Shown: positions 290 through 11,222 of the stretch, piece by piece
Position numbering within the stretch: position 1 is the stretch's first letter
Layout: each line of letters begins with the position of its first letter
Assembly: GCF_028289705.1 (NCBI RefSeq)
Contig: NZ_JANQOI010000137.1
Span: forward strand, 1-64,000
From: Pelagibius sp.
GTDB taxonomy: Bacteria > Pseudomonadota > Alphaproteobacteria > Kiloniellales > Kiloniellaceae
Length of the DNA: 64,000 bases
Direction of reading: 5' to 3'
Notes under the pieces: model-generated
The model's database searches: none
What the model was told of the DNA's origin: nothing
The model's input: the letters and a program-made list of their open reading frames with translations, nothing else
Translations under genes and position numbers: made by a program

Positions 290-976
290 GTGATCAAGCG
301 GGTCTTGCGCGTCTTCCGGCGCCTCCTGTTCTGGACCCTGGGCATCGCTATCGTCACACCGCTGGTCCTGATCCTGATCTATCGCGTCGTGCCGCCGCCG
401 ATCACGCCGCTGATGGTGATCCGCGTCGTCGAGGGGCGCGGCCTGGAGCGTGACTGGACGCCTCTGGCAGAGATCAGTCCCCATCTGCGCCGTACCGTGG
501 TGGCGGCCGAAGACAATCTCTTCTGCGAGCACAGCGGCTTCGACTGGGACTCCCTGGAAGCGGCGGTCCGCTCCTATGCGGCGGGCAAGCGCGCCGGGGG
601 CGGCAGCACCCTCTCCATGCAGACCGCCAAGAACCTGTTTCTCTGGCCGCGGCGCAGCGTCGTCCGCAAAGCCCTGGAAGTGCCGCTGACCGGCGCGCTG
701 GAACTGCTCTGGCCCAAGCAACGGATCCTGGAGGTCTATCTCAACATTGCCGAATGGGGCCCGGGGATCTACGGCGCCGAGGCGGCGGCACGGGCGAACT
801 ATGGCGTGGGCGCGAAAGACCTCAGCCTCCGCCAGGCCTCCCAGCTTGCCGCCGTTCTGCCCAGTCCGCTGAAATGGCGTGCGGCCCCCGCGGGCGACTA
901 TGTTGCCAAGCGTTCAGCGACAATCCGCAAACGCACCCGCCAACTCGGGCCGCTGCTCGACTGCGTGAGCGACTAG
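290..976 (+). CDS. mtgA: Monofunctional biosynthetic peptidoglycan transglycosylase MtgA
   Basis: A 228-residue GT51 glycosyltransferase, which polymerises lipid II into glycan strands at the periplasmic face of the inner membrane. A single N-terminal membrane anchor spans about residues 12-31. The GT51 signature AAED (catalytic Glu74) is followed by FCEHSGFDW, then the GGSTLSMQ motif and KQRILEVYLN. The length is typical for MtgA, and there is no penicillin-binding transpeptidase domain. The start is a GTG with only a weak ribosome site. The stop codon shares CTAG with the stop of the convergent gene on the other strand. Confidence 0.93.
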   Translation: MIKRVLRVFRRLLFWTLGIAIVTPLVLILIYRVVPPPITPLMVIRVVEGRGLERDWTPLAEISPHLRRTVVAAEDNLFCEHSGFDWDSLEAAVRSYAAGKRAGGGSTLSMQTAKNLFLWPRRSVVRKALEVPLTGALELLWPKQRILEVYLNIAEWGPGIYGAEAAARANYGVGAKDLSLRQASQLAAVLPSPLKWRAAPAGDYVAKRSATIRKRTRQLGPLLDCVSD

Positions 977-2193
977 GGCTCGACAGAGCCGCCCCGGGAA
1001 TCCCGGTCGCGGAGTTCGCGCGCGGCCAGCAGACCGAATGGCAGCCACAAGGTCACCCATTCCCGCCCAAGGTTTTGCACCAGGGAACGACTGTCGAAGA
1101 GGGACGCAACGAATCCGAAAACCAGCAGCACCAGATAGATCGGCTTTCCCTTCAAGGCAGCTCTGTAAGCCCATAGAGCGGCAACTCCCAAAAGTGCAAC
1201 GAGCAGCAAGGTTGCCGGAATGCCGCCGTAGAATTGATTGGCCAGGAGCAGATTGTGGGCGGATCGAGACGGCCCGTGCTTGCCGGCAAAGCCGCCTTCC
1301 GCCAAGCTGCCGTGACCGAACCAGGGGTGCTCTGCTATAGCCTGGAGGGCTTGCTGCCAGATTTCGAAATGGCCGCTCGGAGCCCGCTCATACAGGTATA
1401 CAATGGGCTTCAGTTCAAGGAGTACACCGCCCAGAAGCCCGACGGTACAAAGGCCGAAGACAATCATGGCAATGCGGCGGTCTGCAATCAGAGTGGTGAT
1501 CAGCAGGGCGCAGATCAGTGCGATCAGCGGCCCTCGACTCGCCGTCAACATCATGAAACAAAGCCCAAGACCGATGACCCCGACCCAGAGCAAGCGCTCT
1601 CCCATTCCACGTGCCTGAGGCAACAGACAAAAGGCCGCGATCAGGACAACCGAGCCATAGAGCGTCGCCCCGATGATTGGGTGCGACGCCAAGCCGAAGC
1701 CGGTCAACCGCCAAAGGTCTGGCTCACCACTGAAAATGCGCACTGCAAAGACGACCAGCAGAGTCAGACTGGCCGAGAGCGCGAAGCAGACAAACAGCCG
1801 TTTCTCGAAGCTTTCAGAACCAGCGGCCAACAGCGCTGTGATTGCAAAGAAAACGGATACCAGCAGGGCTAGGCGCAAGAGGTTCGCCATGTCGGTCCAG
1901 ATCAGCCCCTCGGTCCAGAGTCCCGAGACCAAGACGTAGGCGACGTAGGCGAAGGCAAGCTTTGCAATGCTTGCGTGGCCGAGAGAACGCAGATTCAGTT
2001 CGCGCAGGCTCAGAATGAAAATCGGTAGCGCCACAACATAGAAAAGAACTCGGTGGCCGCGCGTCTCAAGAACGAATGCGGTGCAGAGCACCAGAATGTG
2101 GGCAGCCTTAACGACCTCGCTGTGCGTCAGTGCGCCATAGATTTTCTTTGCGGTTGTGAAGGTCTTGCCGGGTTCGAGATCGCTTGAAGCCAA
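973..2193 (-). CDS. O-antigen ligase / Wzy-like polymerase family membrane protein
   Basis: A polytopic membrane protein with about ten hydrophobic segments and a periplasmic-loop region containing GHGSLAEGG and SAHNLLLANQ. These resemble the large loop (His- and Asn-containing) of the O-antigen ligase / Wzy superfamily (PF04932). Members join or polymerise surface polysaccharide at the periplasmic face. The start is uncertain: a TTG at 2193 gives about 406 residues, and an ATG at 2286 gives 437 but overlaps the upstream gene by 160 bases. I chose TTG because the extra N-terminus lies wholly within the other gene and carries no recognisable domain. It overlaps the preceding glycosyltransferase gene, so the two are probably cotranscribed. 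Ligase versus polymerase cannot be settled here. Confidence 0.75.
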   Translation of the reverse strand: MASSDLEPGKTFTTAKKIYGALTHSEVVKAAHILVLCTAFVLETRGHRVLFYVVALPIFILSLRELNLRSLGHASIAKLAFAYVAYVLVSGLWTEGLIWTDMANLLRLALLVSVFFAITALLAAGSESFEKRLFVCFALSASLTLLVVFAVRIFSGEPDLWRLTGFGLASHPIIGATLYGSVVLIAAFCLLPQARGMGERLLWVGVIGLGLCFMMLTASRGPLIALICALLITTLIADRRIAMIVFGLCTVGLLGGVLLELKPIVYLYERAPSGHFEIWQQALQAIAEHPWFGHGSLAEGGFAGKHGPSRSAHNLLLANQFYGGIPATLLLVALLGVAALWAYRAALKGKPIYLVLLVFGFVASLFDSRSLVQNLGREWVTLWLPFGLLAARELRDRDSRGGSVEP

Positions 2194-3209
2194 GGATAGT
2201 TCTCTGAAAGAGGATCGTCGAAGCTCTGCTCCAGGATGTACCTGGCAACCCGCTCTGACGCAAACAACGAATGGCCTGCAGCCCAACCGGCCTCGGCAAC
2301 CTTTCGACGCTCACGGTCATTGCGGGCGAAGAACGCCAGCTTGTCCACCAATTCGTCAGGACCATCGAAAAACGCGATCTGATTGTCTGTGAAGATGTCC
2401 CCGAAACCGGTTGACCTGGAAACGAAAGTCAAAAGGCCGTTTCCAAGTAACTGGCTCATCCGGTCAGAGGCGTAGAGATAAGCGTTGTCCGGTCGGCTGA
2501 GGCTGATCCCCATCCGTGCATTGGCCAAAGCGGCAAGGTAAGCGGCACCAAAGACCGGTGGCTTGCCCGGCGTGCAGCGAATGTCGGCGCTCAGACCGGG
2601 GACCTGGCTGATGGCTTCGGTGACGAAGTCCACCCGGCTGTCTTTCGTGTTTACAGCAAAGAATACGTCATGGTCCTGGTCATTGCGCATAAAGGCGCGG
2701 CCCGTATCGATCGCAGAGTCAACCGGGTTGGGGATGAAGTAGACCTCGGCACGGCTGCCCCGGAGTGTTTCGAGGATAGGTGCCGCGGTCGTCACGAAGA
2801 TTTTGTCGACGATCTCGGCGCGGCGCTTCACGCGCTTCTGGTTAGGCCCATCTGAAAGGGCATCGACATTCCGGTAGGCAATGCGAATGTCTGGCATTTC
2901 GTCTCGAATTGCGGCCAGCGTCGAGTTACGGATCACCTCGCAATGACCGAGAAGCAATAAGTCCGGTCGGAAGTTCCGGCAGGTCGTGATCAGCTTGCGA
3001 TTTGCCGCATGCCAACCCGTAATCGAAGTTAGCAGCGGTGTTGAAGCCCTGGCGATTTCTCTGTCATTGAAGGCGTGGAGATTGCAGCCATTACGGATGA
3101 GACCGTGGAGCAACTTCGGTAAGATCATGTAGAAGGAATTGCCGAAGTCACGTCCGAACACATTTCCGACCAACAAGACCTTGCGGCCCGAGTAGTTGGA
3201 TGAGTTCAT
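2127..3209 (-). CDS. Glycosyltransferase, CgeB/GT1-like
   Basis: A 360-residue soluble protein. It begins with a Rossmann-type strand (GRKVLLVGNVFG) and has a second half resembling a glycosyltransferase-B nucleotide-sugar domain: LSRPDNAYLYASDRMSQLLG, then TFVSRSTGFGDIF and a C-terminal helix-rich tail. This layout matches the CgeB-like / Glyco_trans_1_2 proteins, which often sit in polysaccharide clusters. The ATG at 3209 was chosen because AGGACGG lies just upstream; the longer frame back to 3374 adds residues with no domain character. The gene runs into the O-antigen ligase-like gene, which suggests a shared role in surface glycan synthesis. The donor and acceptor are unknown. The 283 bases upstream (3210-3492) show no further gene. 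Confidence 0.65.
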   Translation of the reverse strand: MNSSNYSGRKVLLVGNVFGRDFGNSFYMILPKLLHGLIRNGCNLHAFNDREIARASTPLLTSITGWHAANRKLITTCRNFRPDLLLLGHCEVIRNSTLAAIRDEMPDIRIAYRNVDALSDGPNQKRVKRRAEIVDKIFVTTAAPILETLRGSRAEVYFIPNPVDSAIDTGRAFMRNDQDHDVFFAVNTKDSRVDFVTEAISQVPGLSADIRCTPGKPPVFGAAYLAALANARMGISLSRPDNAYLYASDRMSQLLGNGLLTFVSRSTGFGDIFTDNQIAFFDGPDELVDKLAFFARNDRERRKVAEAGWAAGHSLFASERVARYILEQSFDDPLSENYPWLQAISNPARPSQPQRKSMAH

Positions 3210-3492
3210 GCTGCCGTCCTGGAGTTCGGAATATGTAAGAGTTGAACGGAAAGCAACCTCTGCGCAAGCCGCTTGTTGCGCGCTCGAATTGCTCGCCGGC
3301 CAGATGTACTCGTTTTGGCTAGACAGTTTCATGGATCTGGGCGGGCAACATCTAAGGTGCCACGCACGCGGCAAGGAGCCGCGGATCCACCAGCAGACTC
3401 GGCTGCTGCTTGCTTGGGTGAGTGGCTGAGCTTCCAGGTCCCTTCCGTGTGGTTCGGCTGTGAACCAGGTCGATAGGGGCTGAAAGTATTCC

Positions 3493-5172
3493 TCAGCAGT
3501 CCTGCGGCGGCTGTAGAAGCCCCCAGCCGAAGGTGCTGTCGCGGCCGGGAGACCCGAGGTCGCGCGCCTTGTCGATCAGCGCTTGGCTGGCCGCAGAGGG
3601 TGTGATGTCGGGCTGTGCAGCCAGCATCAGTGCGGCCGCTGCGGCAACGAAGGGAGCCGCGAAGGAGGTGCCGCTGTTGTAGCCGCCGCCTTGACCGCCG
3701 CGCGCGCTCCAGACGTCGACGCCCGGTGCGGCCAGGTCGATGTAGTCGCCGCGATTGGCCTGGCGATAGGGCTGCAGCGCGGCATCGATCGCCGTGACCG
3801 CGACCACGGGTGGATATCCGGCCGGGAAGACCGGCGCCGCGTTGGGCCCTTCATTGCCGGCTGCGGCGACCAGCACCATTCCCGCCTCGTGTGCCCGCTC
3901 CACGGCCAGGCGCAGGACCAGGTTGCTAGACCCGGAGAGGCTGAGGTTCACGATCCTCACGCCCTGCTGGCCGAGCCAGTCGACGGCCCGTGCGATGGCA
4001 TCGGTCGTGCCCACGACGCGGCCGTTGGCGCGCAGTCCGAAGATTGCCGCGGCGTAGAGCCGGGCCGATGGCAGCAGGCCCGCCGTTGTGCTGGCGGGAT
4101 CGCCGATGATCAGCGCGGCGATGGCCGTGCCGTGATCCGCGGGAGCCGCCCGCAGCCCGGCGGCCAGAAAGCTCCGCGCCGTCACGCTGCGGCCGTGCAG
4201 CGCGGGGTGCCGGGGGTCGACCGCGGTGTCCACCAGACCGATCTCGACGTCCTGCCGGCAGGAGCCGGTAGGCTCGGGCCAGCCGACGAGCGCTTTGGCA
4301 TAGGTCCGGGGTTCCGCTGCCGCCTGCGGGCTGTAGAGCGTATTGGCGTCGAAGGTCGTCGCCGGGAAGCCCTGACGCAGGTTGGCAAGGGCGGTGGGCA
4401 CGTCCAGGCCGTTGGGAATGCCCAGGCGGATCAGCACGAAGCCCAGGGCCTGCAGATCCTGAAGGGTGCGCACGGCATAGCCGAGCCCACCGAGTTGCTG
4501 GGTTAAGGCTGTCGCCTGATCCAGGCTGCCGGTAACGGCAAGAACCTCGTCGTCTTCTCGGTCGATGCCTGCGTCACCGAGCGGGGCCGGCGGGACAGGC
4601 AGGCCGGGAGGGACCGCTTCGGGCGCTTGCCGGACTGACGGTCCGGCGGGCGTGACGGTCCCTGGCCGGACCGGTTTGGGCGGCTCGGCGGGCCTGCGCT
4701 CGACGGTGGCCGTGCGGCGATCCGGATCGATGGGGTTGCCGGCAGCGTCCACGGTTGCCGGACGCGGCCCGCAGATCTGCAGGAGACGGCGCTCTGCCGC
4801 GATCTGGTTGCCGCGGCGGTCCTCGATCCCGAGCTGGTACCAGCCGCCCGGCGAGAGGTCCTTCGACTTCGGCACGGTGGCGACGATATGCCGGTCAGAC
4901 CAGGAGGAGACCGTCAGCGCCACCCGGCTGTTGGCATCCTTCAGGACCAGCGCTTTGCCGCCGGCGCGGCCGAAGTTGGTTCCCTTCACGGTGACGCGGT
5001 CGCCAACGTTCAAGCAGGCGCTCGCTCCCACACCGAGAATCTGGGGCGCGGTCCGGCTCGATTGCGCCTGCGCCAAGCCTGCGGTGGCCGCCCAGAGGAT
5101 CAGCACCACCGAGAGCGGTACCACCCAGCGCGGCGCCGGCACAGGTTTCACAGGATCAGTTCCTCTCCGCAT
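3493..5172 (-). CDS. Exported subtilisin-family (S8) serine protease with IPT/TIG-like domain
   Basis: A 559-residue protein with a signal peptide (about 14-37, ending AQAQ) and an IPT/TIG-like beta domain at about 42-135. A proline-rich linker runs from about 160 to 200, then a region resembling a subtilase prodomain at about 207-280, and the S8 catalytic domain at about 308-555. The triad is complete: Asp315 in GLVDTAVD, His347 in DHGTAIA, Ser503 in GTSFAAP, with oxyanion Asn440 in AAAGNEGP. The ATG at 5172 overlaps the end of the anti-sigma gene by 17 bases, so translation is probably coupled. Upstream in-frame codons back to 5415 lie inside the anti-sigma gene and were dropped. Last gene of the six-gene block. 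Its substrate is unknown; the anti-sigma factor is an obvious candidate. Confidence 0.9.
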   Translation of the reverse strand: MRRGTDPVKPVPAPRWVVPLSVVLILWAATAGLAQAQSSRTAPQILGVGASACLNVGDRVTVKGTNFGRAGGKALVLKDANSRVALTVSSWSDRHIVATVPKSKDLSPGGWYQLGIEDRRGNQIAAERRLLQICGPRPATVDAAGNPIDPDRRTATVERRPAEPPKPVRPGTVTPAGPSVRQAPEAVPPGLPVPPAPLGDAGIDREDDEVLAVTGSLDQATALTQQLGGLGYAVRTLQDLQALGFVLIRLGIPNGLDVPTALANLRQGFPATTFDANTLYSPQAAAEPRTYAKALVGWPEPTGSCRQDVEIGLVDTAVDPRHPALHGRSVTARSFLAAGLRAAPADHGTAIAALIIGDPASTTAGLLPSARLYAAAIFGLRANGRVVGTTDAIARAVDWLGQQGVRIVNLSLSGSSNLVLRLAVERAHEAGMVLVAAAGNEGPNAAPVFPAGYPPVVAVTAIDAALQPYRQANRGDYIDLAAPGVDVWSARGGQGGGYNSGTSFAAPFVAAAAALMLAAQPDITPSAASQALIDKARDLGSPGRDSTFGWGLLQPPQDC

Positions 5173-5788
5173 GCGTGACCACGTCGCCCCGCGCGCGCAG
5201 CTTTGTGAGCGCTTCTTCAATGGCGGGATCGCCCTCGGCGGGGTCCAGCAAACGCAGGTCGTAGACGCCGATTGCCGAGGGCCCGTCAGCGATGCTGACC
5301 CCCGCGGCTTGCAGCACCGCGCGAATCTCCTGCTCGGTGGCCGAGGGGGCGAAGGTGACTTCCAGCACCGCGGGACCCAGGAGCGGCTCGCCGCCGGCCG
5401 TGTCGACATCGCCACCGGGCCCGCCGGTCAGGTTCACCAGAACGCCGGCCTGGATCACCACCGCCAGACAGGCGGCGACCGCCAAGGGACGCCACCAATT
5501 GGCGATGGAGACGACCTTGCCGCCACCCGCCACTGGCCGATCCCGTTCCTCGCTGCGGTTGATCTCCCGCTTCAGGCGTTGCAGGCCCAATTCGCCCGGG
5601 CTGTTCTCCTGGGGCTGGTCCTTCACCTGCCGGCGCAACGCCGTGAGCAGCGCCACCTCTTCGCGGGCTTCGCTGTTGTCTTCCAGGTAGGCCTCGACGG
5701 CGGCGCGTTCCTCGGCCGACAAGGTTCCGTTGACGTACCATGGCAAGAGCAGGTCGAGTTCCTGGTCGCTGCGTCCGTTTTCGGCCAT
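5156..5788 (-). CDS. Membrane anti-sigma factor with periplasmic prodomain-like C-terminus
   Basis: A 210-residue single-pass membrane protein. Residues 8-60 form a helical anti-sigma-like cytoplasmic domain (LLLPWYVNGTLS, then AVEAYLED). It lacks the zinc-binding His/Cys set of ZAS-type anti-sigma factors. A membrane helix spans about 98-120. The periplasmic part, about 141-210, reads as a small alpha/beta domain ending VVTHAERN. Its order (strand, TEQEIRAVLQAAG helix, GVYDLRL strand, EEALTKLRA helix, final strand) is that of subtilase propeptides, many of which end in a similar xxAEPN. The start codon overlaps the sigma stop as TGATG, and the 3' end overlaps the protease gene. Anti-sigma function is inferred from position and layout. 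Confidence 0.8.
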   Translation of the reverse strand: MAENGRSDQELDLLLPWYVNGTLSAEERAAVEAYLEDNSEAREEVALLTALRRQVKDQPQENSPGELGLQRLKREINRSEERDRPVAGGGKVVSIANWWRPLAVAACLAVVIQAGVLVNLTGGPGGDVDTAGGEPLLGPAVLEVTFAPSATEQEIRAVLQAAGVSIADGPSAIGVYDLRLLDPAEGDPAIEEALTKLRARGDVVTHAERN

Positions 5789-6342
5789 CACAAGACTCCC
5801 ATCTCCTTGAGCCCCGCAAGGCATTTCATCAATGCCTTCTTTGCGTGAAACATCCGGGTCTTCACGGTTCCCTCCGGGCAGCCCACGATGGAGGCGATTT
5901 CGCCGTAGGGGAGGTCTTCGAAGAAGGCCAGATGCACCACGCTGCGATGTGCCTCTGAGAGCTGGTCGACACAGTGGCGAACCTGCTCCGCATTCTGGGC
6001 CGCCGAGAGTGTTTCCGCCGGATTGGGGGAGTCGTCCTCGGCGATCTCCGGATCCAATTCTACGCTTTCTGCGGGCTTGCGTCGCCGAATCCGGTCGATT
6101 GCCTTGTGATGAGCGATACCGAGAACCCAGGTGCTCACAGCGGACCTTCCCTCAAAGCGCCCGGCGCTGCGCCAGACTTCGAACATGACCTCGTTCAGTA
6201 CGTCGGCCGCTTCGAAGGAATCGTTCACTTTGGAGCGGATAAATCGAAAGACCCGGCCTTCGTAGAGTCGGTAGAACGCGTCGAGGGCGCTCTGGTCGCC
6301 CTCGGCCATACGGTGCAAAAGCTCTCGGTCTTCCTGCGCCAA
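5788..6342 (-). CDS. ECF-type RNA polymerase sigma factor
   Basis: A 184-residue group 4 sigma factor with region 2 at about 14-80 (AFYRLYEGRVFRFI, then DVLNEVMFEVWR) and region 4 at about 122-178 (LPYGEIASIVGCPEGTVKTR helix-turn-helix). It directs RNA polymerase to its own promoter set. The TTG start at 6342 is preceded by GGGAG at a good distance and preserves the usual N-terminal helix (ELLHRMAEGDQ); an ATG at 6309 would remove it. It overlaps the anti-sigma gene by one base, the common arrangement of a sigma and its regulator. It lies 42 bases after the upstream secreted-protein gene, suggesting autoregulation of the whole block. I see no clear GGAAC/GTC-type promoter at the head of the block. 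Confidence 0.92.
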   Translation of the reverse strand: MAQEDRELLHRMAEGDQSALDAFYRLYEGRVFRFIRSKVNDSFEAADVLNEVMFEVWRSAGRFEGRSAVSTWVLGIAHHKAIDRIRRRKPAESVELDPEIAEDDSPNPAETLSAAQNAEQVRHCVDQLSEAHRSVVHLAFFEDLPYGEIASIVGCPEGTVKTRMFHAKKALMKCLAGLKEMGVL

Positions 6343-6384
6343 CGACTGCTCCCACGGCTGCCGGCGGCCCGCCTCTGCGGGCGC

Positions 6385-7512
6385 CTAAGGTCGGTAGATT
6401 TCCCTTACGGAGCTGGACCCGATCACAGCGCCCTTAGCATCAATCGCGCTGACCTTCCAGAGATAGCGCCGATCTGCGGGAATGTACGCAAGGGAGAAGT
6501 GGTTGAAGTGCGCCGCTGTCTGTTCAGCGGACACAAAGATCCCGGCCAGCGCGGTGCCGTCCGGCACTGCGGCTTCACCGGGCGCGGCGAAGAGCTCCAG
6601 GTGATAGGCGGCCACGCCGGCAAGGGCGGACCAGGCAAAGCGCGTCTCCTCGCTGAGCACTTCGTCGGGAAAAGGCTTAGTGGTCAGGATGCGCCCTTGG
6701 GTTGGCGCAGTCACGTAGTACCGCAGCAGCGGTTCGGCGAAACTGGTCTCCGGCGTCGTGATTCTGAAGCGGACCAGGTTCGAACCCTCGACGGCCGTTG
6801 GCAGCGGCGGACTGGTGATGACCGTGCGGCCGCTGGCACCGACGCCCTGGCGCACCAGGGTCAAGGGGCGGAAGACCGGCACCCCGTCCGTCGTGCTGGC
6901 GCTGGCGACTTCCCACTGCCCGCTGATCAGCCCGGCACCGCTGGTGGTGATCTCTGCCACCGCGCGCAGGCTGCTGGCCTCGGCGAGCACGCGGACCCGG
7001 GACTCGTCGTCGAAGGCCAGGGCAAGCCGCTGGACCGTCAGCCCGGCTGAGCCGGGCCCGCTGGGAACGACCGTGACGCTTGCAGCGGCCTCGCCGCTTT
7101 CGAAGCTGTCGGCAAAGCTGCGGCGGACGACCAGTGGGCTGGCCAGCTTGATGGCCCGGAACACGAAGGCCTGAGGGATCACCAGGGTCTCTTCGAAGAC
7201 CAGACGCTCCGGTATCTGGCTGCCCTCGGTTGCGCGCGCCAGGCGCTGCGGGATCGAACCGACGACCATGCCGTCGATCAGCAACTCCGCCCGCTGGGAG
7301 GCGATGGTGCCCGGGCCCGGCGGCGGGCTCACCAGCGTCCTGTCGACCTGCCAGGCAACGGTCAGGCTGCTGGCCCCGGTCGTTGCGACCTGCGCCCTTG
7401 CGGGCTTGGGTGTCACCTCGCTCACCGCGGCCTCGGCCGCACCGGTCAAGGGAGCGAGCAAGAGCGCTGTGGCGGCCGCAGCCCTTGCAAAACGGTTGGT
7501 GCGCGTAGCCAT
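6385..7512 (-). CDS. Secreted beta-domain protein, paralogue of the next upstream gene
   Basis: A 375-residue exported protein with an N-terminal signal peptide (hydrophobic 10-27, AAEAA cleavage region). The rest is beta-rich, with two or three Ig/fibronectin-like segments and a last one ending DRRYLWKVSAIDAKG. It is clearly paralogous to the product of 7618-8847: both share EGSN, RYYVT/QYYVT, PADRRYLW/PSDRRYRW and an ending of IYRP/IYKP. AGGAG lies directly before the ATG at 7512. There is no enzyme motif, lipobox or sorting signal. The function is unknown. Its place between a beta-barrel gene and a sigma/anti-sigma/protease set suggests a periplasmic or surface partner of the barrel. Confidence 0.8.
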   Translation of the reverse strand: MATRTNRFARAAAATALLLAPLTGAAEAAVSEVTPKPARAQVATTGASSLTVAWQVDRTLVSPPPGPGTIASQRAELLIDGMVVGSIPQRLARATEGSQIPERLVFEETLVIPQAFVFRAIKLASPLVVRRSFADSFESGEAAASVTVVPSGPGSAGLTVQRLALAFDDESRVRVLAEASSLRAVAEITTSGAGLISGQWEVASASTTDGVPVFRPLTLVRQGVGASGRTVITSPPLPTAVEGSNLVRFRITTPETSFAEPLLRYYVTAPTQGRILTTKPFPDEVLSEETRFAWSALAGVAAYHLELFAAPGEAAVPDGTALAGIFVSAEQTAAHFNHFSLAYIPADRRYLWKVSAIDAKGAVIGSSSVREIYRP

Positions 7513-7549
7513 GTCTCCTACCTCACCTCACGATCCCTGGGGAGAGCCG

Positions 7550-7590
7550 TCCATGGGACCCGCGGTCCCGGCGGCTGCTCCCATGGGTCG
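7550..7590. other. Intercistronic inverted repeats
   Basis: CCATGGGA at 7551-7558 pairs with TCCCATGG at 7579-7586. A competing smaller hairpin, GGGACC with GGTCCC, lies within it at 7555-7569. It sits in the 105-base gap between the two paralogous secreted-protein genes and has no T-run. It may stabilise or attenuate the message between the paired genes. Confidence 0.4.
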
Positions 7591-7617
7591 TATGGCGGTG
7601 GCGGAAGGTTCAAGGCG

Positions 7618-8847
7618 TTAGGGCTTATAGATATCCGCCAGCGCGCTGACGCCGATGGTGACGCCGTTCTCGCCGATGGCCTTGACCAGCCAGCGATAGC
7701 GGCGGTCAGACGGCAGGTGGGCCAGCGTGAAGTCCTTGAGGCGGGTTTCGGTCACGGCCGCCGGCACCACCACACCGGTCAGGGGCGCCGCCGGCGCCTC
7801 GGGCTGGCCGTTGGGGGCTGGATCGAGCGGGGCGTTGGAGACCACGGTTTCCTGGTCCGCCGGCTCGGCCGGTCCGCTGCCGCCCCGGAAGAACTCCAGC
7901 TTGTAGGCGGTGGCGCCGGGGATCGCCTGCCAGGCGAAACGGGTCGTCTGGGTCAGGGGCGTACCCGGCCCAGGGCTGGTGGTCAGCAACAGGCGCGGTT
8001 GTTGGCCGTCCGGCAGCGGGCTCTCCGGCGTCACGTAGTACTGCAGTTCCGGCGCGTCGAAGAAGGTGCCGGGATCGGTGATGCTGAGGCGCACGATGTT
8101 GCTGCCTTCGAAGCGGGTGGGCAGCGGCGGGCTGGTGATCACCACGCGGCGCCCGCCGGCGATGTTCTGGCGCACCAGGGAAAGGGGGCGGAACACCGGC
8201 GCGCCGGCGGTGGTCGTCGCCGGGGCGATTTCCCACTGCGCGATAATGAGGCCGCTGCCGGTGGTGTTCAGCTCGGCGCGGGCCCGCAGGCGGCTGCCCT
8301 TCGGCAGCACCCGCACCCGCGAATCGTCGTCGAAGGTCAGCGACAGACGGCTCACCGTGAAGGACTCCGACCCGGGCCCGGAGGGATTGAGGATCAGGTC
8401 GCCGGAAAGGCTGGCCGGAAAGGGCGCGACCGCGCCGGTGTTGTCGGTGAAGGTGCGGCGGAGCACGAGGGCTGACCCGGACTTTACCGCCCTGAAGGCC
8501 AGGGCCTGGGGCACGGTGAAGCTCTCCGTGAAGGTGGCGCCTTCGTTGGCGATGGTGGCGCCGGGAAGGCTGCGGGAGAGGGTGCGGTTCACCGTGCCGA
8601 CGACGGCGCCGTTCAGCAGGAACTGGCCGCTGGGCGAGGAAATCACGCCGGGGTTCGGGACGATCGTTCCGGGAATGCGCACGACGCGCCAGACCACGGT
8701 CACCGTGCTCGGTGCCGTCGCGGAGATGGCGATGCGGCTCGGCACCGCGTCGACACTGACGATCCCGGCCATCGCCGGCCCCGAGGACAGCAGCAGGCCC
8801 AGCGCGAATGCCAGGACCGAGAGCAGCGATGCCATGCGGCGGGTCAT
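7618..8847 (-). CDS. Secreted beta-domain protein, first of a tandem paralogous pair
   Basis: A 409-residue exported protein with a signal peptide (hydrophobic 7-27, GPAMA cleavage region). Beta-rich domains follow, with the same conserved stretches as the downstream paralogue: LVRQ, VITSPPLPT, EGSN, and DRRYRW near the end. It is 34 residues longer, mainly through a Pro/Ala-rich insertion around residues 320-350. GAGGGGC precedes the ATG, and the gene starts 11 bases after the beta-barrel gene, so the two are cotranscribed. I do not recognise a named family, and no catalytic motif is visible. An adhesin, a matrix component, or a periplasmic subunit of the barrel is possible. Confidence 0.8.
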   Translation of the reverse strand: MTRRMASLLSVLAFALGLLLSSGPAMAGIVSVDAVPSRIAISATAPSTVTVVWRVVRIPGTIVPNPGVISSPSGQFLLNGAVVGTVNRTLSRSLPGATIANEGATFTESFTVPQALAFRAVKSGSALVLRRTFTDNTGAVAPFPASLSGDLILNPSGPGSESFTVSRLSLTFDDDSRVRVLPKGSRLRARAELNTTGSGLIIAQWEIAPATTTAGAPVFRPLSLVRQNIAGGRRVVITSPPLPTRFEGSNIVRLSITDPGTFFDAPELQYYVTPESPLPDGQQPRLLLTTSPGPGTPLTQTTRFAWQAIPGATAYKLEFFRGGSGPAEPADQETVVSNAPLDPAPNGQPEAPAAPLTGVVVPAAVTETRLKDFTLAHLPSDRRYRWLVKAIGENGVTIGVSALADIYKP

Positions 8848-8858
8848 AATGGAGCCCC

Positions 8859-10964
8859 TCAGTAGACTACCGGCAGCGAGAGCCGGAGCGTCGTGAAGGC
8901 TTCGTACTGCAGGTCGTCCTCGGAGTTGTCGAAGTCGTCATTGGTTTCCTGAATGAAGCCGTTGAAGGCAAGGGCGATGCCCAGCCTGTTGGCGTCCGGC
9001 TCGCGCAGCGTCCAGACGACCTCGCCGCCCAGGCTGGAGCTGTCCGGTGTGTCGCCGTCACCGGTCCGAACGTTCAGATTATAGGACAGGGAGGCGGTGA
9101 GCACCTGCGGGATCACCGTGATATCGCTGGCCAGTCCGAAGTTGACGGTGCGGTTCGCCTTGCCCAGGTCCTTGTCCTCGAAGACGTCATACTGCACCGT
9201 CGGTGAGAGCGTCAGCCAGTCGTCGATCAGGAAGTAGCCGCTGAGCCCCGTCGTGTTGTTGACGGTGTCGCTGGTGAAATTGATCTCGTCCTCGAAGGAA
9301 TAGATCATATGGGAGACGTTCCAGCTCCAGCTCTCGTAGTTTGAGCCCAGGTTGAAGGTGAGGGAGCGGCTGACGTTGTTGGCATCGTCTGCCGGGAAGT
9401 CGACCGAGCGCTCGACCCGTTCGATATCGGTGACGCTGGCGTTGACCGTAAAGAAGGGCTGGCCGTACCAGGGCAGGCTGCCGTCCTCCTCCGGCTCGAC
9501 GAAGGGGGTGTAGGAGCCGTTGAAGTAGACCCGGATCGTGCGGTCCGTGGGCAGAAAGTCGAAGTCGTCGACGTTGCTGTACTCGTGATCGACCTGCAGG
9601 TTGGCGGTGAACTCGTCCCAGAAGAAATCGGTGAAGATGGAGGTGGTCTCCCGGTCGGGCCGAATCCCCGGGTTCGCGAGGCTCTGAAAGAAGGTGTCGA
9701 TCTGCTCGCGCTGAACGCCGATGGTCCAGTTGAGGATGCCGCCGTCCAGCGTGGTGCCGCGCAGCGGCTCTACGGAGGCAAGGAATGAGTAAGCGTTGGC
9801 GGTCTCCGCGTCGAAGCCCTCGTCCTTGCCGTCGAAATCGAAGGTCGCCTCGGCGAACTCGCCGCGCAGCCGGACGCGTTCCTCGAACCACAGGCTGTCC
9901 ACGGCGACGGACCAGCCGTCGCCCTCGTTGATGACCTCCTCAGTGCCGATCCCGAAGCCGCCGTCGCTGCCCTCGCCGTTGTAGTAGACCCCGGTGAGCA
10001 CCAGGTTCTCCTTCAGCGCCCCGATGGGCCGCAGCGATACCGAGGCGCCCTCGACCCGGTCCTCGTCGTGGCTGATCCCCAGGACGTGGCGGGTGCCGAC
10101 CAGGGATTCGGTGCGCAGGACGAAGCCGGTGGCCGTGATCCGTTCGTCGGCGGTACCCACCCTCATGGAAACGCCGCGGCGGTTGAAGTTCGACATCACC
10201 AGGCTGTCGATCCCGGTATCGTGGTTGCCCACGGTCAGGCCGGCGAAGACGTCCTCATTCTGGAAGTCGCCGTCCAGGCGGAACTCCCCGAGGTCGAAGT
10301 TGCGCTGCTCCAGGCCCAGTTCGAGTTGGGAGTTGTAGATGTAGTTGCCCTGCGCGGAGAGGCGCCAGGTCTCGTCGCCGGCCGCCGCCTCCACATCGCC
10401 GCCGCTTTCGCCGGTGACGTGCTGCGAGGGCGTTTGCAGGCCCTCGTTCAGGACCCGCGCGTTCACCTCGCCGGCGAGATCGGCGTTCACCGTGAGGTCG
10501 CGGATCAGGGCGGAGTGGCGCACCTCGACCAGCCAGACCCCGCGCTCGGCGATGCTGCCGTCATCGCCGCGTTCGATGAGGCGCACCACGTGGTCTCCGG
10601 TGGTGAGCGGTTCGGGAAGGGTGACGGTGAGTATGCCCGGCCCGGTCGTCGCAAAGGCCGTCAGGTCGATGTCGTCGACCTCGACCGCCAGGCGCGGGTA
10701 GACCGCCGGGTCCAGGTCGGCCGGAAGGTCGATGACGATGGGATCGCTGCGTCCGCGGGTCTCGCCGGCCGGCGCCCGCAGCTCGGGCACCCAGTCCTGC
10801 GCCAGGCTCGGCGAGGAGACGGCAAGTCCGAAAATCAGGACGGCAAAACCCAGGGCTTCAAAGCCGCGTCCGGCTGAGCGCAATAGCCCCCCGCCGCCGG
10901 CGCCCGTTCCCTGCGCCGCAGTCAAAGCCGTGGCCCCGTGCGAACCACGTCCCGGACGTCTCAT
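8859..10964 (-). CDS. Outer-membrane beta-barrel protein with N-terminal Ig-like domain
   Basis: A 701-residue protein. An N-terminal export signal ends near residue 55 (SSPSLAQ), and a beta-sandwich-like domain spans about 57-155. From about 160 to the C-terminus there is a long run of amphipathic strands with alternating aromatic residues, rich in Asp, Asn and Tyr. The protein ends with an aromatic residue (LPVVY), as expected for insertion by the BAM complex. There is no TonB box or plug domain, so it does not look like a TonB-dependent receptor. It heads the six-gene block and is followed after 11 bases by the paralogous secreted proteins. It could be a porin, a surface anchor or an export pore; the sequence does not decide. 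Confidence 0.78.
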   Translation of the reverse strand: MRRPGRGSHGATALTAAQGTGAGGGGLLRSAGRGFEALGFAVLIFGLAVSSPSLAQDWVPELRAPAGETRGRSDPIVIDLPADLDPAVYPRLAVEVDDIDLTAFATTGPGILTVTLPEPLTTGDHVVRLIERGDDGSIAERGVWLVEVRHSALIRDLTVNADLAGEVNARVLNEGLQTPSQHVTGESGGDVEAAAGDETWRLSAQGNYIYNSQLELGLEQRNFDLGEFRLDGDFQNEDVFAGLTVGNHDTGIDSLVMSNFNRRGVSMRVGTADERITATGFVLRTESLVGTRHVLGISHDEDRVEGASVSLRPIGALKENLVLTGVYYNGEGSDGGFGIGTEEVINEGDGWSVAVDSLWFEERVRLRGEFAEATFDFDGKDEGFDAETANAYSFLASVEPLRGTTLDGGILNWTIGVQREQIDTFFQSLANPGIRPDRETTSIFTDFFWDEFTANLQVDHEYSNVDDFDFLPTDRTIRVYFNGSYTPFVEPEEDGSLPWYGQPFFTVNASVTDIERVERSVDFPADDANNVSRSLTFNLGSNYESWSWNVSHMIYSFEDEINFTSDTVNNTTGLSGYFLIDDWLTLSPTVQYDVFEDKDLGKANRTVNFGLASDITVIPQVLTASLSYNLNVRTGDGDTPDSSSLGGEVVWTLREPDANRLGIALAFNGFIQETNDDFDNSEDDLQYEAFTTLRLSLPVVY

Positions 10965-11144: not shown

Positions 11145-11222
<78 letters not shown>

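Follow-up and report, generated by a model that had tools for sequence, protein, structure and literature searches.

What does a block of six adjacent genes that combines a surface structure, a sigma factor, and a protease do in Pelagibius sp., and is it one system? The block lies in a 64,000-nucleotide stretch of DNA (contig NZ_JANQOI010000137.1, positions 1 to 64,000; hereafter, the window) and encodes an outer-membrane barrel, two paralogous secreted proteins (B1 and B2), an extracytoplasmic function (ECF) sigma factor, a membrane anti-sigma factor, and an exported S8 protease of the subtilase type. An original prediction had placed the six genes on one strand, the first four separated by gaps of 11, 105, and 42 bases and the remainder overlapping, a layout that the coordinates bear out, and had proposed a system for sensing or remodelling the envelope. 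On the basis of the analyses described here, we consider it somewhat probable (approximately 55%) that the block couples a protease-linked ECF signalling system to a module for surface proteins.

Results

Conservation of the gene order

A profile of the barrel protein was run against 84,980 species, each represented by one genome, and 30 barrel loci were found. They occurred in Pelagibius, Kiloniella, Denitrobaculum, Sneathiella, Micavibrio-labelled and other alphaproteobacterial metagenome-assembled genomes, Methylophaga, and one groundwater gammaproteobacterium. A gene for B followed the barrel gene in all 30 loci, and the sigma, anti-sigma, and S8 genes were present as well as far as the contigs reached. 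The tblastn searches of 20-kb stretches revealed that the order barrel, B (one or two copies), sigma, anti-sigma, and S8, all on one strand, was kept down to approximately 30% identity. In the Denitrobaculum group (four loci), barrel, B, and sigma stood together, and anti-sigma and S8 were located approximately 4-8 kb upstream on the same strand. Within the order to which the genome of the window belongs, relatives of B and of the anti-sigma factor were found in the identical 22 of 61 genomes (5 of 28 genera), these 22 being kin and not independent events. The pairwise distances of barrel, B, anti-sigma, and S8 were correlated (r 0.85-0.96), as expected under co-inheritance. These findings indicate that the gene order of the block is kept far beyond chance.

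The pair of secreted proteins that had been predicted is present in the window, but the two-B state is limited to the Pelagibius group, apart from an interrupted second copy in genome G027 (L075:10481-11278; three TGA codons reported within the match); a single B is found elsewhere. In most non-Pelagibius loci, a gene for a secreted protein of approximately 420-490 amino acids with no Pfam family precedes the barrel gene and enlarges the gene set (examples are L103:8430-9809, L108:8513-9874, L121:8330-9640, L102, L106, L109, L111, and L114). This first gene of the relatives, termed A10-type, was not found in the genome of the window by a search that had no positive control.

Sigma factor, protease, and anti-sigma factor

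The sigma factor matched its family with an E value of 2.5e-15; PF04542, PF08281, and TIGR02937 were all above their cut-offs, and the protein has regions 2 and 4 without region 3, as is characteristic of ECF sigma factors. The protease matched PF00082 (E 2.5e-38), and its catalytic triad D315/H347/S503 is conserved across relatives. Judged by these sequence matches, both proteins are secure members of their families.

The anti-sigma factor matched zf-HC2 weakly (0.0016, below the cut-off). The zinc motif HX3CX2C is absent from the window protein, which has one cysteine in its entire length; this excludes it from the zinc-binding subgroup only. In the AlphaFold model, an RslA-like cytoplasmic domain is followed by a membrane helix and then by a domain of beta-alpha-beta-beta-alpha-beta topology, for which the predicted local distance difference test (pLDDT) scores are mostly above 90. 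The top structure match was RslA (residues 7-64, Z 7.4), and together with the helix at residues 100-121, it provides the domain fold and membrane anchor of a class I anti-sigma factor.

The outer domain of the anti-sigma factor carries the pattern VLxVTFxPxATExxIRxLL..IxxGPSALGxYxL..L. PF22148, the fervidolysin prodomain family, was matched by 6 of 19 anti-sigma members (best E 1.2e-4), and the best structure matches of residues 139-210 included the subtilisin prosegments 1spb_P (Z 7.2), 3whi, 3cnq, and 1scj (Z approximately 6.8-7.2). Subtilase prodomains are domains that fold and inhibit subtilases. The family match in relatives, the modelled fold, and the neighboring subtilase gene support the view that the periplasmic domain is a subtilase-prodomain relative.

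Two separable modules

Beyond the set of barrel loci, 398 genomes were sampled across the phylum, and 40 of them had prodomain-type anti-sigma factors. When 20 of these wider loci were examined, an S8 gene was adjacent to the sigma and anti-sigma genes in 18, which suggests an association of the protease with anti-sigma factors of this type. Neither barrel nor B was present in any of the 20 in the stretches read (contig L152 ends at the sigma gene). In genomes G219 and G325, barrel and B occur without sigma, anti-sigma, or S8 genes nearby. Because the modules occur apart, the block counts as a barrel-B module joined to a widespread sigma-anti-sigma-S8 module. The original prediction had regarded separation of the barrel genes from the sigma and protease genes in relatives as a reason for giving up a single system, and such separation was found in part, in the split Denitrobaculum loci and in the modules that stand alone.

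In one of the two genomes with solitary barrel and B genes (L092:12501-18503), these genes lie beside CHAT-TPR, DUF928, and CHASE2-adenylate cyclase genes. Orphan paralogues of the prodomain-type anti-sigma factor, with no sigma or S8 gene nearby, were seen at L082:8959-9675 and L083:9073-9789.

Putative promoter motif and predicted regulon

Alignment of upstream regions revealed the motif TTGAAC(C/G)...CGAC, with a fixed 17 bases between TTGAAC and CGAC. In the window and in seven further Pelagibius-group genomes that were read, the motif stands between the two B genes. It lies ahead of the first gene in the Kiloniella, Micavibrio, and Methylophaga loci, ahead of the anti-sigma gene in the Denitrobaculum group, and directly before the sigma gene in several wider loci of sigma, anti-sigma, and S8. 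One match was found in the window, compared with 0.06 expected. A sigma-dependent promoter is likely to lie inside the 105-base gap (7613-7587). Scans for sigma-70 promoters and terminators revealed nothing above chance.

In 14 genomes holding the block, TTGAACC-N16-CGAC had 223 matches against 42 for the reversed control, compared with 30 against 39 in 12 genomes without the block (Fisher p 4e-11, with sites partly dependent among relatives); enrichment was confined to the genomes with the block. The sigma factor of the block presumably reads this motif. Occurrences of TTGAAC-N17-CGAC within the sigma and barrel coding regions fall on conserved codons and were discounted as promoters. In most relatives, they recur within the sigma gene and in the 3' portion of the barrel gene, for example, at L064:8651-8625 and L064:11698-11672, and could reflect codon conservation or internal promoters.

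The predicted regulon was sampled from genome stretches. According to a crude predictor that misjudged some genes, a signal-peptide-like start lay within 110 bases of the motif at 5 of 9, 19 of 35, and 11 of 24 sites in three genomes, compared with 13, 10, and 7% at random positions in the same genomes. The products encoded downstream included several CARDB proteins and, in P. litoralis, tandem paralogues of 640-880 amino acids; the motif also precedes genes for relatives of the secreted protein with which the operon begins in Kiloniella, Micavibrio, and Methylophaga. A basic Arg/Lys-Pro tail or a short hydrophobic stretch (for example, IVPGLGN or VIPNIGG) is often found at the end of proteins of this predicted regulon (L211, L212, L213, L216, and L223), and these endings are possible sorting or anchoring signals.

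Barrel and B proteins

No Pfam or NCBIfam family was matched by the barrel, B1, or B2, and a PDB sequence search yielded no family for the barrel either. Structure prediction, another check that had been proposed, supported a barrel: the AlphaFold model (31 sequences; mean pLDDT 81) has an immunoglobulin (Ig)-like N-domain at approximately residues 60-150 and 26 predicted strands at residues 156-700. Foldseek ranked FimD ushers first, and VIA-align ranked MtrB first (Z 18.1 over 454 residues), followed by FimD and AlgE. Among relatives of B, 7 of 23 matched fn3 (best E 7e-5), the fn3 and Ig matches being weak.

The 26 predicted strands and the best structural match are shared with the MtrB/PioB sheath. 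Unlike that sheath, the barrel has no cysteine, matches it nowhere in sequence, and carries the extra Ig-like N-domain, and no multihaem cytochrome partner is encoded alongside: CXXCH is absent from the operon proteins, and no open reading frame with multiple CXXCH motifs was found in window positions 1-24000. An MtrB-type electron conduit was ruled out because cysteine is lacking in the barrel and haem motifs are lacking in the operon. Chaperone-usher systems (FimD/PapC with an Ig chaperone) resemble the block in that a large barrel gene stands beside a gene for an Ig-like secreted protein, and FimD came first in Foldseek. In contrast to those systems, no member of the barrel or B families matched an usher or pilus-chaperone Pfam family, the strands number 26 and not 24, and no pilin genes were seen. 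The secreted regulon and the size of the barrel suggest that barrel and B may export, anchor, or display surface proteins.

Layout of the block and neighboring genes

The coordinates of the features are listed in Table 1. The sigma and anti-sigma genes overlap by one base (TGATG). The S8 gene starts at 5172 (ATG) or at 5151 (GTG), the position used by several relatives, and the anti-sigma/S8 junction is accordingly a 17-base overlap or a short gap.

Table 1. Positions of the genes and predicted features of the block in the window
Feature	Position	Strand	Description
Outer-membrane barrel protein	8859..10964	-	701 aa; signal region, C-terminal Tyr
B1, secreted Ig/FN3-like partner protein	7618..8847	-	409 aa
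B2, B1 paralogue from Pelagibius-group duplication	6385..7512	-	375 aa
ECF sigma factor	5788..6342	-	TTG start, same across genus
Membrane anti-sigma factor	5156..5788	-	RslA-like cytoplasmic domain (7-64), transmembrane helix (100-121), periplasmic domain
Predicted subtilase-prodomain-like domain of anti-sigma factor (beta-alpha-beta-beta-alpha-beta), residues 138-210	5159..5377	-	Pfam in relatives, AlphaFold, fold matches
Exported S8 subtilase	3493..5172	-	IPT/TIG-like domain, own prodomain-like segment, catalytic domain
Probable prodomain-like segment of S8, residues about 205-285	4318..4560	-	Suggested by sequence pattern
S8 catalytic domain, triad D315/H347/S503	3520..4251	-	Family match, triad conserved in relatives
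Putative ECF promoter TTGAACC-N16-CGAC	7587..7613	-	B1-B2 gap, 75 nt before B2

Next to the block are two further genes (window 973-3374, minus strand), one glycosyltransferase-like and the other for an O-antigen ligase (Wzy_C). This pair is also beside the block in 4 of 7 other Pelagibius-group stretches (L064, L066, L067, and L068) and was undetected in the stretches from other genera. A tRNA-Pro-like gene, recognized by eye, lies immediately upstream of the barrel gene but on the other strand (window 11147-11221, plus strand).

Discussion

Comparison with known systems

In the RsiV-sigmaV system of Bacillus subtilis, the anti-sigma factor is an enzyme receptor, and lysozyme binding triggers its proteolysis (PMC4183432). 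Both systems have an ECF sigma factor and a membrane anti-sigma factor, and RsiV is the nearest precedent for an outer domain that acts as an enzyme receptor. The enzyme of RsiV is a foreign lysozyme, whereas the candidate here is the protease encoded within the operon itself, and the anti-sigma outer domain is probably related to subtilase prodomains. Class I pairs of the RslA-SigL type share sigma regions 2 and 4, the RslA-like cytoplasmic fold, and the membrane anchor with the block; in contrast to them, the window anti-sigma factor has no zinc-binding cysteine motif and has a prodomain-like outer domain and a linked S8 gene. ECF54-type contexts include subtilases and CHAT proteins, and ECF54 has been described as having no anti-sigma factor (PMC8999054). 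A subtilase near an ECF sigma factor, and the CHAT-TPR gene beside barrel and B in one relative, recall ECF54, but here an anti-sigma factor accompanies the sigma factor. No description of an ECF system with an S8 protease or subtilase, a prodomain, or CARDB was found in the open-access literature searched, in agreement with the original prediction, whose author was aware of no described system of such composition.

Proposed mechanism and alternatives

The proposed protease-linked system draws on computational observations, namely, the conservation and linkage of the genes, the prodomain homology, and the promoter motif with its association with secreted genes; reading of the motif by this sigma factor, protease-anti-sigma contact, signal direction, and the role of barrel and B are what we infer from them. 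The anti-sigma factor would keep the sigma factor at the inner membrane, and its periplasmic domain would be related to the inhibitory prodomain that caps a subtilase. The exported S8 protease, freed of its own prodomain, would bind or cleave this decoy cap, and destruction of the anti-sigma factor would begin, freeing the sigma factor. Free sigma factor would then act on TTGAACC-N16-CGAC promoters of the genes from B2 through sigma and anti-sigma to S8 (in relatives, of the first gene, or of anti-sigma and S8) and of a dispersed set of genes for secreted CARDB or Ig-like proteins. Export, anchoring, or display of these proteins may fall to the 26-strand barrel and the Ig/FN3-like B. The fuller proposal, a new envelope system in which a protease-sensing ECF switch with a decoy prodomain controls an unrecognized export or display machine and dispersed CARDB-type substrates, is advanced tentatively, at less than even odds. 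The prodomain-bearing anti-sigma factor makes the sensing part of the original prediction plausible, but remodelling has no direct support; the regulon of secreted CARDB or Ig-like proteins instead points to surface display or export.

Several observations weigh against this reading. PF22148 was not reached by the window anti-sigma factor itself. The Z scores of the prosegment fold matches are only moderate, with other ferredoxin-like folds just behind. When profiles were compared, the anti-sigma domain matched the prodomain-like segment of the S8 protease weakly (probability 4-11%, P 0.003), and this direct link was too weak to be relied on. The solitary barrel-B genes of G219 and G325 suggest that the barrel may work without the signalling part. 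In the window, no such promoter was seen before the barrel gene, so that barrel and B1 may be expressed independently. The crude signal-peptide calls also detract from the predicted regulon.

Three other explanations were weighed. The prodomain-like domain may be a chaperone or inhibitor of the periplasmic S8 protease, which would be an effector that matures or degrades the regulon proteins, with the sigma factor switched by another signal through ordinary site-1/site-2 proteolysis. The established action of prodomains on subtilases fits this explanation, as does the position of the S8 gene, downstream of the anti-sigma gene and itself within the predicted regulon; nevertheless, the adjacency of S8 even where barrel and B are missing (18 of 20 loci) suggests a closer regulatory role without being decisive, and we regard the inhibitor explanation as rather unlikely. 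We are similarly doubtful that barrel and B are a monitored structural complex of the outer membrane, such as a porin or sheath with an Ig-like plug or a lipid or glycan handler, from which B or the barrel would signal damage to the anti-sigma factor or S8. The match to MtrB, a 26-strand sheath, and the position of the barrel-B genes ahead of the signalling genes in nearly all loci argue for a complex of this kind, whereas a predicted regulon of secreted proteins and the chaperone-usher barrels near the top of the fold list argue against it.

The claim that barrel-B and a generic sigma-anti-sigma-S8 unit merely adjoin each other, as two unrelated units, accords with the separate occurrence of the modules and the likely internal promoter between B1 and B2. 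It is highly improbable in view of the identical presence in 22 of 61 genomes, an order kept over alpha- and gammaproteobacteria, the motif before both kinds of unit, and the congruent distances. The unity that had been predicted for the block therefore holds in the sense of one linked system, to which the 30 loci, the co-presence, the common motif, and the distances all testify, but a single transcriptional unit is not established because of the likely promoter in the 105-base gap and the separable modules.

Under the protease-linked signalling reading, a decoy prodomain on an anti-sigma factor would provide the cell with a concrete, testable way of sensing free protease in its own envelope. 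The system would tie an unclassified barrel family and an unclassified Ig-like family to a predictable regulon of secreted proteins in marine bacteria, and the promoter motif may allow this regulon to be read straight from genomes.

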